NCBI GenBank assembly: GCA_945902745.1
Contig: CAMDNE010000007.1
Coordinates: forward strand, 1 to 64,000
Origin: Chitinophaga pinensis
Lineage (GTDB): Bacteria > Bacteroidota > Bacteroidia > Flavobacteriales_D > Crocinitomicaceae
Reading direction: 5' to 3'
DNA: 64,000 bases
Shown here: piece by piece, positions 58,326 to 63,878 of the stretch
Numbering within the stretch: the first letter of the stretch is position 1
Layout: each line of letters starts with the position of its first letter
Translations under genes and position numbers: made by a program
Notes under the pieces: generated by a model
What the model was told of the DNA's origin: nothing
Seen by the model: the letters and a program-made list of their open reading frames with translations, nothing else
Databases searched by the model: none

Positions 58326-59459
58326 TTGATTTTCATGTACCCAATAATTTATTTAAATCGCCAAGAGATTGGCTTGAAAACCTTTTATTACGTCAGTTTT
58401 GACTTTAACAGGATCATTTATCAACTGTTCAAATCGCTTGAAACTTTTTTCTGGGATAAACATGAAAAATGTTGGGCTTTTGATGAGGCACATTGTTCTT
58501 TGAAGGAATTATATGCTCATTTTGAAGGAAAAGCAGAATTTGTTTTATCAGATAAGACATTGGAAAGTGTTGAATATAAAAAAGCACAGTTACGACCGTG
58601 TCATTTTTTGGAACCATTAGATTCTGACATGGAGCTTGAGATTCAGTTATTCATTCGGTATTTGACATCAAAGCGTTACAGTCCAAATACGATAAAAGTT
58701 TATTCGGATTCCTTGTCCACTTTTTTGCGCTATTTTTCAATGAAGAGTATTTTGGAAATTTCGAATGATGATCTTATTGATTTCAATAACAATTATATCT
58801 TGAAGAACAACTTTTCGGGTTCATATCAAAATCAGGTTGTAAATGCTGTCAAGTTATTTTATTCAGCAATACATCACCATAAGATAGATGTGGAATTGAT
58901 TCATCGGCCGAGGCGAGAAAAATTGCTCCCAAATGTGTTGAGTAAAGAAGAAGTGAAAGCGATTTTAGAGGCTCCCTATAATTTAAAACACCGAGCCATG
59001 TTGGCCATGATTTATTCATGTGGATTAAGAAGGAGTGAATTATTGAGTCTTACAAAATTTGATGTCGATTCAAAACGAATGGTCGTAATAATCAGGATGG
59101 CAAAAGGTAAAAAAGACCGAATTGTGCCTTTATCGCCGAAGATTTTAACCTTACTTCGTGACTATTACAAAAGTTATAATCCCAAAGAATTCCTTTTTGA
59201 AGGTCAAAGTGGAGGCAAATACAGTGAAAAAAGTCTAGAAAATGTTTTAAAGCAGTCCTTATTTAAGGCGCGGATTGAAAAACCTGTAACGCTTCATTGG
59301 TTAAGACATAGTTATGCCACCCATTTATTGGAGAATGGCACTGACTTAAGGTATATTCAAGATTTACTTGGCCACAAAAGCAGTAAAACAACTGAGATTT
59401 ACACCCACGTTAGCACTAAGAATATTCAAAATATCCGCAGTCCGTTTGACGATTTATAA
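58326..59459 (+). CDS. Tyrosine recombinase with unusual N-terminal domain
   Basis: The 377-residue protein has the catalytic set Arg235 (SCGLRRSELL), a Lys in the GKKDRIVPL hairpin (about 260), His324/Arg327 (HWLRHSYATHLLENGTDLRYIQDLLGH, with His350) and nucleophile Tyr359 (TTEIYTHVS). A SAM-like core-binding domain spans about 100-190. The first 95 residues are extra: FYYVSFDFNRIIYQLFKSLETFFWDKHEKCWAF resembles a small HARP-like domain seen in some Bacteroidota integrases. The C-terminal IRSPFDDL recalls integron integrase ends, but the IntI-specific insert between the Lys hairpin and the HxxR box is absent. It is the likely recombinase for the cassette array that starts 0.94 kb downstream. 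Confidence 0.9.
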   Translation: MIFMYPIIYLNRQEIGLKTFYYVSFDFNRIIYQLFKSLETFFWDKHEKCWAFDEAHCSLKELYAHFEGKAEFVLSDKTLESVEYKKAQLRPCHFLEPLDSDMELEIQLFIRYLTSKRYSPNTIKVYSDSLSTFLRYFSMKSILEISNDDLIDFNNNYILKNNFSGSYQNQVVNAVKLFYSAIHHHKIDVELIHRPRREKLLPNVLSKEEVKAILEAPYNLKHRAMLAMIYSCGLRRSELLSLTKFDVDSKRMVVIIRMAKGKKDRIVPLSPKILTLLRDYYKSYNPKEFLFEGQSGGKYSEKSLENVLKQSLFKARIEKPVTLHWLRHSYATHLLENGTDLRYIQDLLGHKSSKTTEIYTHVSTKNIQNIRSPFDDL

Positions 59460-59484: not shown

Positions 59485-60312
59485 ATGAATTCTATTAAAT
59501 TATTTGAAAGCAAAAATATCCGCTCTGTTTGGAATGAAGCAGAAGAAAAGTGGTATTTCTCCGTACATGATATTGTTTTTGTCTTAACTGATAGCACTGA
59601 TGTGAAGCAATATGTCAAAAGGATTTTAAGCAGAGATTCTTCTCTAAAGTTGAAGTGGGGTACAATTTGTACCCTAGTTGAAATGAAAGCTGCTGACGGA
59701 AAGAATCGAAAAATACTTGCAGCAAATAGCCAAGGGTTACTAAGATTAATTCAATCAATTCCTTCTCCAAAAGCTGAACCTTTCAAACTTTGGCTTGCAC
59801 AAGTTGGCTCAGAAAGAATTGAAGAGATTGAAAATCCAGAATTAGCAATTCAACGCACTAGAGAAATATACAAACTCAAAGGATACTCTGATGAATGGGT
59901 TGAAAAACGCATGCGCAGTATTGCGATCCGTGAAGAATTGACAGAAGAATGGTCTGAACGAGGAATCAAAGAGCAGAAAGAATATGCAATTCTTACAGCA
60001 CAAATAACCAAAGCAACCTTTGGTTTAACTCCTTCTGAGTACAAAGAAGTAAAGAATTTAAAGCGAGAAAATCTTAGGGACCACATGACGGATTTAGAGT
60101 TGATTTTTTCTATGCTTGGAGAAGCATCAACTACTGCCATTGTTAAAACTCAAAATCCAAAAGGGTTTATCGAAAACAAAAAGGCAGCAAAACAAGGAGG
60201 TGATGTTGCTGGAAATGCACGCAAGGAATTAGAGAAGAAGACCGGTGAAAAAGTTGTTTCAACGACGAATTACAAAGTTTTAGAAGAAAAAAAGCAAAAG
60301 AAACTTAAATAA
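59485..60312 (+). CDS. Bro-N domain (phage antirepressor-like) protein
   Basis: The 275-residue protein begins with a BRO-N domain (IKLFESKNIRSVWNEAEEKWYFSVHDIVFVLTDSTDVKQYVKRI...). The central region is helical (NPELAIQRTREIYKLKGYSDEWVEKRMRSIAIREELTEEW). The Lys-rich end (FIENKKAAKQGGDVAGNARKELEKKTGEKVVS) is typical of Bacteroidota BRO proteins. The family occurs in phages and mobile elements as DNA-binding regulators. It starts 25 bp after the integrase, so co-transcription is likely. It may control the recombinase (inference). Confidence 0.88.
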   Translation: MNSIKLFESKNIRSVWNEAEEKWYFSVHDIVFVLTDSTDVKQYVKRILSRDSSLKLKWGTICTLVEMKAADGKNRKILAANSQGLLRLIQSIPSPKAEPFKLWLAQVGSERIEEIENPELAIQRTREIYKLKGYSDEWVEKRMRSIAIREELTEEWSERGIKEQKEYAILTAQITKATFGLTPSEYKEVKNLKRENLRDHMTDLELIFSMLGEASTTAIVKTQNPKGFIENKKAAKQGGDVAGNARKELEKKTGEKVVSTTNYKVLEEKKQKKLK

Positions 60313-60324
60313 TGACTAGTTTTA

Positions 60325-60403
60325 ATAACCCTCATAAAATGAGGGTTATCCGCCCGATTTGAGAGATAACCCTCAAAAAATGGCGGTTATATATACGTTA
60401 GTG
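60325..60403 (+). promoter_or_regulatory. Alternative hairpins and first core site (attI-like) of the cassette array
   Basis: Arm A ATAACCCTCAT (60325-60335) and arm B ATGAGGGTTAT (60339-60349) form an 11-bp hairpin. Arm C ATAACCCTCA (60366-60375) can pair with B instead, and CCGCC (60350-60354) with GGCGG (60382-60386). Immediately to the right is the core GTTAGTG (60397-60403), the 5' boundary of cassette 1. There is no R'' or L'' box to its left, so it resembles an attI-type site rather than attC. It could also regulate transcription into the array. Confidence 0.55.
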
Positions 60404-61093
60404 GCAACTGAGAGACGTGCGAAGTGTAATTAAATATTGAATAGAATTGTGTAATAGAAACATGAAATGCTAAAAAGAATTTTTTATATCATTTGTTTTA
60501 TTGTTTTTATTCAATTTATTGATGGGTGTAAAAAGGATAAAGTGCCATACCCTGAAATAGTTGAACAATCAAAATGGGAAAAATTATCAGGGGAATACAA
60601 AGTGTATGATACACTAGGAAATTATCTGTACGACATGAATATTTCGCACATACATGATAGTCAAAATGATACGGATTCACTTCATTTTGAAAATTTTGAC
60701 GATAATTTTGATTTTAGTTCAAAACAATTAAACTTTGGCTCAAATGTTTCCCCATATTTCATAACTATTGGGCCAAAATACACTATTTTCGATAACGAAT
60801 TTAAAAGATGGAAAATCCTAACACTCGCTGATACTGCTTATAATACTTTAATAAATGGCACAATAAAAATGAAGTATCGAATAACAAATATCAACTATTA
60901 TTTACAAGACATTACACCATATTGTGACACAATAAAAATTCAATTAGCGGTCAAACAATAAATGCCACTAACACACGCTTAGCAAAAAAGCCGAAATCTA
61001 TTTAACGAAAAACGATTAACATAAAAACTTTAGATCATTGATCGCAAATAATATTAATTTTAAAAATCGGCTTCTTCGCTAAGCGCGAAACCG
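60398..61093 (+). mobile_element. Integron-like gene cassette 1 (696 bp)
   Basis: The cassette runs from TTAGTGGCA (after the G of the GTTAGTG core) to the G of the GTTATGT core. The ten bases GTTAGTGGCA at its left end are perfectly complementary to TGCCACTAAC (60963-60972) at its right end. This is exactly what is expected of a cassette whose circular form has a matched R''/R' pair. It carries one gene, 60467-60961, in the array direction. Confidence 0.78.
60467..60961 (+). CDS. Cassette-borne lipoprotein of unknown function
   Basis: The 164-residue protein has a lipobox signal (MLKRIFYIICFIVFIQFIDGC). The mature part is hydrophilic and rich in Asp, Asn and Tyr (HDSQNDTDSLHFENFDDNFDF), probably a small beta-barrel or sandwich; a lipocalin-like fold is possible but unproven. 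It starts 69 nt after the cassette's left core and ends 2-5 nt before the attC R'' box, a compact layout typical of cassettes. The function is unknown. Confidence 0.8.
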   Translation: MLKRIFYIICFIVFIQFIDGCKKDKVPYPEIVEQSKWEKLSGEYKVYDTLGNYLYDMNISHIHDSQNDTDSLHFENFDDNFDFSSKQLNFGSNVSPYFITIGPKYTIFDNEFKRWKILTLADTAYNTLINGTIKMKYRITNINYYLQDITPYCDTIKIQLAVKQ

Positions 61094-61099
61094 TTATGT
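60966..61099 (+). other. attC-like recombination site 1 (134 bp)
   Basis: The order is R'' CACTAAC (60966-60972), L'' CGCTTAGC (60976-60983), an inner arm GCCGA (60990-60994), a long AT-rich loop, TCGGC (61067-61071), L' GCTAAGCG (61078-61085) and R' GTTATGT (61093-61099). L''/L' and the inner arms are exact complements. The words AGCAAAA and CTTCGC recur at the same places in the other sites. Confidence 0.82.
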
Positions 61100-61191
61100 C
61101 CAATCTGCGCAACCTGATAAGTATCTCCCCAATCACTTGTCCGCTTATACCACGGTTTGAACTACTAGACATTTATAAATTGAAGTTCATT

Positions 61192-61263
61192 TTAGAGTTC
61201 GGCGCTGATGGCGACCAAATCTCGATTTGAGACGTTATCACGTCCACGAACTCTAAGTTAGGC
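61192..61263 (+). repeat. 10-bp inverted repeat ending in a GTTAGGC core
   Basis: TTAGAGTTCG (61192-61201) and CGAACTCTAA (61247-61256) are perfect complements, immediately followed by GTTAGGC (61257-61263). The right side looks like an attC site, but no R'' box is recognisable on the left. It may be a remnant attC of another subfamily. Confidence 0.5.
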
Positions 61264-61451
61264 AAAAAAATTTAGAAAGTCAAGTGTTAAACTAGCGTTT
61301 TATGAATCGACCATACGTTCAACTAACGTCGCTTACACGGAATGTAAGCACCATTAGTATGACCGCAGCGTGCTTGGGTTGATTTTTTAATTTATTCCAG
61401 GTTACTTGACTACGTTTTTATTATATTAGCTACCCAAGAGATAAAAACTGA

Positions 61452-61527
61452 ACATAACATCGACTAAGCAAAAGCAGCAAGTACATATTCCAGAGAGCTG
61501 CCTTCGCATAGTCGAGTACCATTATCT
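61452..61527 (+). other. Degenerate attC-like site (76 bp)
   Basis: R'' ACATAAC (61452-61458), TCGACTA (61460-61466), AAGCAAAA, GCAGC (61474-61478), GCTGC (61497-61501), CCTTCGC, TAGTCGA (61509-61515) and an R'-like ATTATCT (61521-61527) follow in order. The stems are exact, but the invariant G of the R' GTT is A, so the site may be inactive. Confidence 0.65.
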
Positions 61528-61656
61528 GCCATATTACGACCGAAAACAAACAGACAAAAAACAATAATCATAAGAGTTTGTAAAAGAGAAAATTAGCGAA
61601 CTAATAATGAAAAGCCCTTAAAAAGGCAAAATGAAAACACAAATTATATACACAGA

Positions 61657-62082
61657 ATGAAAACATTATCGAACATATATAAAATTGTAAATATTATCGC
61701 AGCTTTGGGATGGGCAATATTGATCTTTTTCCCGTTTTGGGATTTAGCTGATACTGTCATTATTAAAGGGATTGTTGTAGGACTTTCTTTGTTTTATGTC
61801 TATTTACTATTCATTCAAAAAGACATTAAAAACGAGGACTATCCAAAAGGAAATTTTGTATCTTTAGAAGGTGTGATGTTACTATTTAAAAACCCTCGAA
61901 ATTTATTAGCTGGTTGGGTTCACTATCTAGCATTTGATTTGATCTTAGGGATTTACATCAAAAGTCAGGCAAATGAGATTGGAATGAGTCATTTATGGCA
62001 AATTCCATGTTTTATTCTGACATTTATATTAGGCCCAGTTGGTTTTTTATTGTTTATTATTTTACAATTATTCATACAATAA
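61657..62082 (+). CDS. ABA4-like (DUF4281) membrane protein
   Basis: The 141-residue protein has four membrane helices (YKIVNIIAALGWAILIFFPF, IIKGIVVGLSLFYVYLLFI, the HYLAFDLILGIYI segment and IPCFILTFILGPVGFLLFIILQLFI). The motifs AGWVHYLAFDLILG and HLWQIPCFILTFILGPVG match the ABA4-like family, named after a plant neoxanthin-synthesis protein; bacterial roles are unsettled. It is first of three co-directional genes in the cassette and lies 34 bp before the glycosyltransferase. Confidence 0.82.
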   Translation: MKTLSNIYKIVNIIAALGWAILIFFPFWDLADTVIIKGIVVGLSLFYVYLLFIQKDIKNEDYPKGNFVSLEGVMLLFKNPRNLLAGWVHYLAFDLILGIYIKSQANEIGMSHLWQIPCFILTFILGPVGFLLFIILQLFIQ

Positions 62083-62116
62083 TTGGGTAAATTGCAAAAA
62101 GAAGCCAGTTAGAAAT

Positions 62117-63387
62117 ATGCGAATAGGATTAGTAACAAAAGGTTCGAGAGGAGACATACAACCCTTTATTGCGTTGGCAATAGGGCTAAAAAACAATGGA
62201 CATCAAGTAACTATTGTAACCTTTAAAAATTTTGAAAACCTTGTTACTGACTATAACATTGAATTTTGTCCGTTGAGCATGGACATCGAAAAAGAAGCCT
62301 ATACGGAAGATGTTTTAGAGGTGCTTCGAAAAGGCAATATGATGAAATTTGCTAAACTGATTGGCAAAAACTCTGAAAAATATAACGAAAAAATAATTTT
62401 TGAAATTGACAAGGCTTCTGATAGCTTCGATTTTATAATTGCAAGCGGATTAGCTTTTCCCAACATTTTACCAATAACATTAAAGAAAAATATAAAATAT
62501 GGTATTCTTAATTTTAGTATGCCCTACTCTATTACAAAAGAATTTCCTGCAATTGGATTTGGGGTTCAAATATACCTTTCATAAATAAAATATCTTATTC
62601 TATTTTCACTTATATAGCGGTAAAGTTGTTTATTCAAAAAGATGTCAATCTAACAGCCAAACTACTTAATTTGCCAAATTGGAAAACCTCAGAATTAATG
62701 ACAGAGTTATTAAGAAAGAATAGGCTTATCATTCATCCAATGAGTAATCAATTGCTCAAACAGCCTAAAGACTGGCCTTCTAATTCTTTTGTAACTGGTT
62801 TTCTTGAAATCCCAACGACTGAACGAAATAGAAATATTAACGAACAAATCCCTGAAGCATTAAAAGCATGGATTGAAGATGGAGAAAAACCTATTTATAT
62901 TGGTTTTGGAAGTATTCCTATTCCAGACACCAACTTACTAAAAACAATTATAGATGAATTGTTGACCCAAACTAATCATCGAATTGTTTTTTGTAACGGC
63001 TGGACTAAGCCATTCATTGATACGAAACATAAAAATCTATTTGTTATCGAAAATATTAATCACGAATGGCTATTCCCAAAATGTAAAATGGCAATCATTC
63101 ATGGGGGTATTGGAACTATAGGTTCTTCATTAAAATCCGGAATTCCAATGGTTATTGTTTCTATTGTTGCAGACCAACCATTTAACGGCAAATTAATTGA
63201 AAAAAATAAAACAGGTGTACACATTCCATTCAAAAAATTGACTTTTGAAAAACTACTTGGAGGTATAACTAAAGTTGATTCGAACGAATTTAAGCAAAAT
63301 ACAAAATCCATTGAAGAAAAAATGCATCTCGAAAATGGTGTAAACGAAAGTCTTATTATTATCGAAAATTATGTAAAGCAAAATTAA
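62117..63387 (+). pseudogene. Frameshifted GT-B glycosyltransferase (UGT/sterol-glucosyltransferase-like)
   Basis: Part 1 (62117-62584) begins MRIGLVTKGSRGDIQPFIALAIGLKNNGHQ, a classical GT-B N-terminus. It then runs out of frame at GGGG (about 62560-62564) and stops at 62584. The correct continuation is in the next frame (SNIPFINKISYSIFTYIAVKLFIQKDVNL) through 63387. It includes IYIGFGSIP and the donor-binding block HEWLFPKCKMAIIHGGIGTIGSSLKSGIPMVIV. One added G would restore a single frame of about 424 codons. It would be a real frameshift, phase variation or a homopolymer error. It would glycosylate a lipid-like acceptor. Confidence 0.85.
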
Positions 63388-63389
63388 AT

Positions 63390-63737
63390 ATGACTGCATT
63401 TTTAAACAACAAACATTACTTCTACCTATTGCTAACAATACTTGGCGGTGGACTTACATTTTATTTTGCGGTTCTTGGCATCATTGAACACAACGGTGAT
63501 TTTGATAGTATTGAGTTTATTACGAGTACTTGGACAGACAATTATTATGCGAAAAGTTTGAGTTTCGACTTTTGGACAGGTACTATTGCAGGAACTTTTT
63601 TTATACTCGTGGAAGGGCTTCGACTAAAAATGAGAAGAATTTGGCTATATCTTTTCTTGACGATATGCGTAGCTTATGCATTCGGTTTTCCACTATTCTT
63701 ATTCATACGAGAACTACATTTAAGAAAACAGAAATAA
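63390..63737 (+). CDS. DUF2834-family membrane protein
   Basis: The 115-residue protein has three membrane helices (YFYLLLTILGGGLTFYFAVLGI, FWTGTIAGTFFILVEGLRL, IWLYLFLTICVAYAFGFPLFLFI). The motifs LVEGLRLKMRR and FGFPLFLFIREL are those of DUF2834. It starts 2 bp after the glycosyltransferase stop, so the three cassette genes form an operon. It ends 10 bp before the R'' box of the attC site. The function is unknown. Confidence 0.83.
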   Translation: MTAFLNNKHYFYLLLTILGGGLTFYFAVLGIIEHNGDFDSIEFITSTWTDNYYAKSLSFDFWTGTIAGTFFILVEGLRLKMRRIWLYLFLTICVAYAFGFPLFLFIRELHLRKQK

Positions 63738-63747
63738 AAAATACGGC

Positions 63748-63878
63748 ACATAACACGGGCTTAGCAAAAGTGGCGGTAAATCGCTACGCAGACAGTTTTG
63801 TGGTTAAAGAAAAATTGTACTCCGCATGAAAATTATTCATAAAAATCGCCACCTTCGCCAAGCCCGAAAACGTTAGGC
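63748..63878 (+). other. attC-like recombination site 2 (131 bp)
   Basis: R'' ACATAAC (63748-63754), L'' GGGCTTAGC (63757-63765), inner arm GTGGCG (63770-63775), loop, CGCCAC (63847-63852), L' GCCAAGCCC (about 63857-63865) and R' GTTAGGC (63872-63878) follow in order. GTTAGGC is a perfect GTTRRRY core. Shared words with site 1: ACACG, GCTTAGCAAAA, CTTCGC, CGAAA and CGTTA. Confidence 0.88.

Follow-up and report, generated by a model that had tools for sequence, protein, structure and literature searches.

Integrons of the IntI kind, such as the class 1 integrons and the Vibrio superintegron, combine an integrase gene with an attI site and a co-oriented array of gene cassettes, and IntI is defined by its additional domain (PMC2426708, PMC9668308). 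They have been reported as very rare in Bacteroidetes: a 2022 survey, in which IntI-specific profiles define integrons, lists one complete example, in Salinibacter (PMC9024848). An 'integron-like' subgroup of simple tyrosine recombinases has also been named, for which the sections of that paper considered here describe no Bacteroidia platform, attI or attC (PMC8138268). We analyzed the first 64 kb (the window) of a 149,651-bp contig (CAMDNE010000007.1) from the 3.46-Mb genome assembly GCA_945902745.1, Chitinophaga pinensis; positions above 64,000 are contig coordinates past the window edge. Near the end of the window, a tyrosine recombinase gene is followed, 5' to 3', by an attI-like site and about eight co-oriented cassettes that reach contig position 75.5 kb. 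We propose that this locus is very probably a chromosomal integron of a Bacteroidia-specific kind. It shares with the IntI systems, besides the layout given above, the AAC and GTT cores, the complementarity of each cassette's own R' and R'' boxes, a hairpin that is more stable on the bottom strand and an integrase ending in SPxDxL.

The sequence-only reading, made from the letters of the window, had described an integron-like cassette array at this place. The array is real, and it is larger and more general than was claimed. Sites 1 and 3 (listed below) have the R''-L''-L'-R' order and GTT cores ascribed to them, the left core of cassette 1 is perfectly complementary to its own right R'' box, and the decayed site between them is genuine. 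An attI-like core is also present, at 60399 and not at 60397, so that only its position had to be moved, 2 nucleotides to the right. As predicted, the array continues past the window edge, with further sites at 65602, 70111, 71380, 74536 and 75413 that a simple scan for hairpins, together with inspection by eye, revealed. The site at 75413 is the terminal one of the array and has a damaged core, and an additional site lies at contig 79888. A covariance model, R1, was built from 20 training sites that include sites 1 and 3; it matches strongly in hundreds of genomes, and a site of the same genome outside the training set (C29:13870) scores as high as these two (104.5 bits). The features of the window are the following.

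58335 to 59459, forward strand: tyrosine recombinase, 374 amino acids from the ATG at 58335, with an N-terminal HARP-like domain, a core-binding domain, a catalytic domain and the C-terminus SPFDDL; identified by NF040815, its catalytic residues and linkage to attC arrays elsewhere
59485 to 60312, forward strand: gene with a Bro-N domain (PF02498, 2e-11), between integrase and attI
60321 to 60402, forward strand: attI-like site of about 81 bp with inverted repeats and the crossover core GTT at 60399, where homology with six relatives ends
60399 to 60968, forward strand: cassette 1, R'/R'' 10/10, with an open reading frame (ORF) at 60467-60961 for a lipoprotein-like product of 164 amino acids that matches no family
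60966 to 61099, forward strand: attC-like site 1, R1 90.8 bits
61093 to 61457, forward strand: cassette 2, no recognizable ORF, R'/R'' 8/9
61452 to 61527, forward strand: decayed attC-like site 2, recognized by sequence, its core GTT now ATT at 61521
61521 to 63750, forward strand: cassette 3, R'/R'' 8/10, genes assigned by Pfam: an ABA4-like protein (61657-62082), a glycosyltransferase (62118-63387) and a DUF2834 protein (63390-63737)
63748 to 63878, forward strand: attC-like site 3, R1 113.6 bits
63872 to 64000, forward strand: start of cassette 4, which runs on to contig 65604 and encodes a 543-amino-acid protein, R'/R'' 10/10

In integrons, the R' box at the 5' end of a cassette pairs with the cassette's own R'' box, the cassette moving as a circle. 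The ends of the cassettes described here behave in this way. In cassette 1, GTTAGTGGCA at 60399 matches TGCCACTAAC at 60963 at every one of 10 positions. Cassette 4 begins with GTTAGGCACA at 63872, and its predicted partner TGTGCCTAAC is present at contig 65599, again 10 of 10; this is one example of the further R''/R' pairs beyond 64 kb for which the sequence-only reading had suggested looking. Even at decayed site 2 the arms TCGACTAAGCAAAAGCAGC and GCTGCCTTCGCATAGTCGA still pair and the R'' box GAACATAAC at 61450 matches GTTATGTCC at eight of nine positions, next to a right core, ATTATCT at 61521, that has lost the G of GTT. Across 21 arrays of this and other genomes, which provided 75 adjacent site pairs, the 5' core of every cassette was set against the R'' box at its own 3' end. 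At least 6 of the 7 variable positions next to the core matched in 63 pairs; the same level was reached by 1.6% of random pairs (n = 8,652) and in 2 of 96 comparisons within the same site. The pairing is nearly perfect over the six positions after GTT and then ends. Many of the exceptions cover long intervals, where one site probably disappeared or escaped detection. Pairing of a cassette with itself is therefore read as the trace of its movement as a circle.

The sites are about 130 bp long, with an AAC core at the start, a GTT core at the end and a 20-bp imperfect stem between. In an alignment of 20 sites on the bottom strand, 90.5% of the pairs were standard, the covariation score reached 0.656 (0.17 when shuffled) and 18 of the 20 stem pairs displayed compensatory change on both sides, a signal that was abolished by shifting the arms by one base. 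At one pair, 18 of the 20 sites keep a bottom-strand G.T wobble, which corresponds to A.C on the top strand. Arms folded with DNA parameters were more stable as bottom strand in 107 of 117 sites. The stem is part of the model by which most of the 117 had been detected; the 20 sites that predate it, themselves picked by hairpin scan or by eye, are therefore the best basis for judging covariation. The cores read GTT[AG] followed by about five free positions (for example GTTAGTG, GTTATGT and GTTATCG) and, unlike those of IntI integrons, do not fit the canonical GTTRRRY / RYYYAAC; in most sites the stem is set off from the cores by 1 and 5 unpaired bases. The L arm was checked for extrahelical bases: the arms are mostly equal in length, with the conserved G.T wobble. 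A search of Rfam returned no relevant family.

The attI-like site marks a boundary behind which the cassettes change. Six relatives of the genus (G021, G024, G007, G023, G003 and G002) match the window over the recombinase and Bro-N genes and about 80 bp more, and the match ends exactly at the GTT core, after which the sequence differs in each. A gene order fixed in relatives, which the sequence-only reading had named as a point against a cassette array, is thus not what was found: different cassettes stand behind the same attI. One cassette could be followed between genomes. Cassette 63872-65740, in the interior of the array here, is in G021 the first cassette, directly at the attI copy on contig C16 (see below), with 88% identity over its full length, and therefore occupies both places as a unit. 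Between the recombinase and the first site, a candidate core matching the first R'' box was found in 37 of 37 loci searched. It usually lies 38-180 bp after the recombinase stop, and about 940 bp after it in the genus of the window, where the Bro-N gene lies between and is kept at constant distance in the six relatives (74-99% identical). Genes similar to it can be SOS-regulated in other bacteria. The same 81 bp, with no recombinase beside them, also head further cassette arrays on a contig of the same genome (C12; L239, 3788-3907) and on contig C16 of G021 (L238, 3930-4010); other attI-like copies were seen in L247 (3237-3352) and L246 (2496-2575).

The recombinase has all catalytic residues of tyrosine recombinases (R233, K258-261, H322, R325, H348 and Y357, counted from 58332). 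It matches NF040815, described as 'site-specific tyrosine recombinase/integron integrase', above cut-off with 223.9 bits. Its match to the IntI model TIGR02249 reaches 190 bits, under the cut-off of 265, and is split in two pieces because the IntI-specific insertion is missing. The catalytic lysine box and the H-x-x-R box are 64 residues apart here and 63-69 in 37 proteins of the family, whereas the spacing is 106 in 10 of 10 IntI proteins, and the family has gaps in 42 alignment columns that IntI fills. Since the insertion of about 42 residues near patch III, the additional IntI domain, was not found, the protein is not IntI by the accepted definition. In a quick tree, support for an IntI clade was 100%, the window recombinase fell outside it, and a single clade of IntI and the Bacteroidia group was not rejected (p 0.44). 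The best matches among solved structures were the XerA-type 4a8e and 5hxy, followed by IntI4 (2a3v). XerA, XerC and XerD share the catalytic fold and differ in lacking the extra N-terminal domain, the SPxDxL tail and the linkage to attI and attC arrays. The first ~75 residues are predicted, with a confidence near 90, to form a separate domain, a further difference from IntI. The HARP profile PF07443 was matched by 2 of 22 and 3 of 26 family members (best E 7e-8), and a profile of the domain, compared with PDB sequences, had SMARCAL1 HARP (4o66) as its top match at a modest E of 0.025. Given a recombinase other than canonical IntI and sites different from class 1 attC, we support the integron-like interpretation of the sequence-only reading in a modified form: the system is of the integron type, with an integrase of another kind.

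A scan of a genome collection with a recombinase profile gave 80 loci, 43 of them in Bacteroidota and 37 elsewhere. The Bacteroidota loci contained 66 sites: 63 lie downstream in the orientation of the recombinase (191 kb searched) and three upstream (331 kb), all divergent. The array usually runs in the direction of its integrase, unlike those of IntI integrons. A downstream site was present in 20 of the 32 loci with at least 1 kb there. Many recombinase contigs stop within about 1 kb after the gene, as expected of draft assemblies, in which repeat arrays end contigs early. Named carriers include Algoriphagus ornithinivorans, Flavobacterium aciduliphilum, Winogradskyella ursingii, Algibacter onchidii, Seonamhaeicola aphaedonensis, Zunongwangia mangrovi and Rufibacter. 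Among 198 Bacteroidia genomes, 154 have sites, 107 the recombinase and one an IntI over cut-off; sites occur in 101 of the 107 recombinase genomes and in 53 of the 91 others (p=8e-10, with kinship ignored). The 37 non-Bacteroidota loci gave one weak match in 539 kb, and 14 whole genomes from other groups had no site; on these counts an origin of the sites in XerC/D or IS91 was rejected.

Several observations weigh against our interpretation. The other 12 of the 32 loci have no site downstream; seven of these are flanked by less than 2.5 kb, and in three (L136, L141 and L149) a site lies upstream instead. L121, L138 and L153 have about 10 kb downstream and no site there. Six genomes with the recombinase lack any site, and 53 have sites and no recombinase at the threshold used, which may reflect arrays that outlived their recombinase, broken contigs or the action of another enzyme. 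The window recombinase is itself not among the HARP matches, so that the assignment rests on family members. The 53 genomes would also fit an orphan cluster of attC sites (CALIN) moved in trans by a canonical IntI, with the neighboring recombinase as a bystander, and the attC of blaVEB-1, a member of the site family, is indeed recombined by IntI1, poorly (PMC3518468). Such an IntI is hard to find in the Bacteroidia: the own genome has two other XerC/D-like genes and no IntI over cut-off, and the single IntI genome among the 198 contrasts with the 154 that have sites. A canonical IntI was rejected as the missing enzyme on these grounds. Across the phylum IntI is common (84 of 296 genomes), nearly always in other classes. 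Over many families, moreover, array, attI and recombinase keep a common order and orientation, and we consider the bystander explanation improbable.

Instead, the recombinase could be part of a mobile element, IS91-like or other, that lies beside repeats by chance. Related shorter recombinases do adjoin IS91 transposases on a Myroides plasmid, and an ISVsa3 lies near the recombinase copy that accompanies tet(X3). Yet in the window no transposase adjoins the recombinase, which is flanked by the conserved attI common to relatives up to the core. Its relatives in Alphaproteobacteria and elsewhere lack such sites, both in their neighborhood and in the 14 genomes searched, and we regard this explanation as very improbable. 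Finally, hairpins just behind genes, with a stop codon at a median of 14 nucleotides before the site, are what terminators would look like, and repetitive extragenic palindromic (REP) or miniature inverted-repeat (MITE)-like repeats and XerC/D targets can be considered along with them. Neither an R'/R'' pairing specific to each cassette and spanning hundreds to thousands of bases nor precise boundaries with exchange at the attI junction would be expected of terminators or MITEs, and that the sites are something other than cassette recombination sites is scarcely credible.

We therefore return to the chromosomal integron of a Bacteroidia-specific kind. The sequences bear out an array, an attI, self-complementary cassette ends, a conserved hairpin with strand asymmetry, cassette turnover and linkage to a recombinase: the locus is integron-like on every mechanistic sequence criterion tested, although it does not count as an integron under the strict IntI definition. 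In the mechanism we propose, the recombinase would be the enzyme of cassette insertion and excision, recombining the attI-like site with the folded, single-stranded bottom strand of attC-like sites on circular cassettes. New cassettes would enter at the GTT core at 60399 and push older ones down the array, and recombination between two attC sites would excise them. The N-terminal HARP-like domain might help to hold the branched or hairpin DNA, replacing the IntI insertion; the corresponding domain of HARP/SMARCAL1 endows that protein with annealing-helicase activity (PMC4035279 and references therein). The family offers a natural way of testing what an integrase needs in order to recombine folded single strands, and in which of its parts. 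The locus looks like a working gene-capture platform that is widespread in Bacteroidia, and sites in about three quarters of the sampled Bacteroidia genomes revise where gene cassettes are thought to live. The system would escape the usual searches because its recombinase is without the trademark part of known integron integrases, and the open-access full texts searched, a scope outside which preprints and most subscription papers fall, hold no earlier description of it.

Sites typical of this family accompany the clinical resistance genes blaVEB and tet(X). In a Myroides odoratimimus plasmid (L250 4058-5584), tet(X2) lies between two family sites (92.5 and 41.7 bits) and its ends pair 10/10; it is a gene cassette of the Bacteroidia site family. 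In an Acinetobacter baumannii plasmid (L249 6022-8160), tet(X3) is preceded by a shortened copy of the recombinase (51% identity), after which come a palindrome and the core GTTATGTGCC, and the left half of a site follows tet(X3). A shortened recombinase copy and an attI-like junction likewise precede blaVEB-3 in a Klebsiella michiganensis plasmid (L251 5142-6763). With an attI profile, the blaVEB-3 and tet(X4) junctions ranked in the top 0.3% of background GTTR sites and that of tet(X3) in the top 3.5%, for which reason the case for a tet(X3) attI depends on the recombinase and palindrome next to it. Around tet(X4), tet(X5) and tet(X6) in Proteobacteria, R1 gave no match; solely the 5' end of tet(X4) resembles an attI junction.

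The blaVEB-1 (veb1) cassette resides in class 1 integrons, and its 133-bp attC (L254 3910-4048) belongs by sequence to the Bacteroidia site family (52.8 bits, E 1e-10; R'/R'' 10/10). Membership of class 1 attC sites in the same model was rejected in all other cases, with no match at E 10 on the tested plasmids. Aubert and colleagues found the veb1 attC to be about 50 times less efficient with IntI1 than the aadB attC (PMC3518468), which would be explained if it is the attC of another integrase's site family. The Bacteroidia system is thus a possible source of the blaVEB and tet(X) cassettes; the signatures point to such an origin, and the direction and timing of transfer are our inference from them. 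We give roughly even chances to the broader proposal that the Bacteroidia hold an overlooked integron lineage of their own, which would recognize attC through a HARP-like domain, use integrase-free attI copies as landing places and have supplied the proteobacterial blaVEB and tet(X) cassettes.

Individual cassettes provided further observations. The glycosyltransferase of cassette 3 is related to macrolide- and rifamycin-modifying enzymes, and a frameshift, due to decay or sequencing error, splits its gene. Toxin-antitoxin pairs are common in sedentary integrons, and the last cassette of the array (L003 4751-5409, contig 74750-75408) encodes a VapBC-like pair. In the one-contig genome G038, two successive cassettes of equal length and equal ends (L063 7293-8876) probably represent a cassette duplication. 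On a Flagellimonas plasmid with erm(F), two family sites, scoring 110.7 and 42.1 bits, lie next to a gene of the dihydrofolate reductase family (L253 7889-8736).

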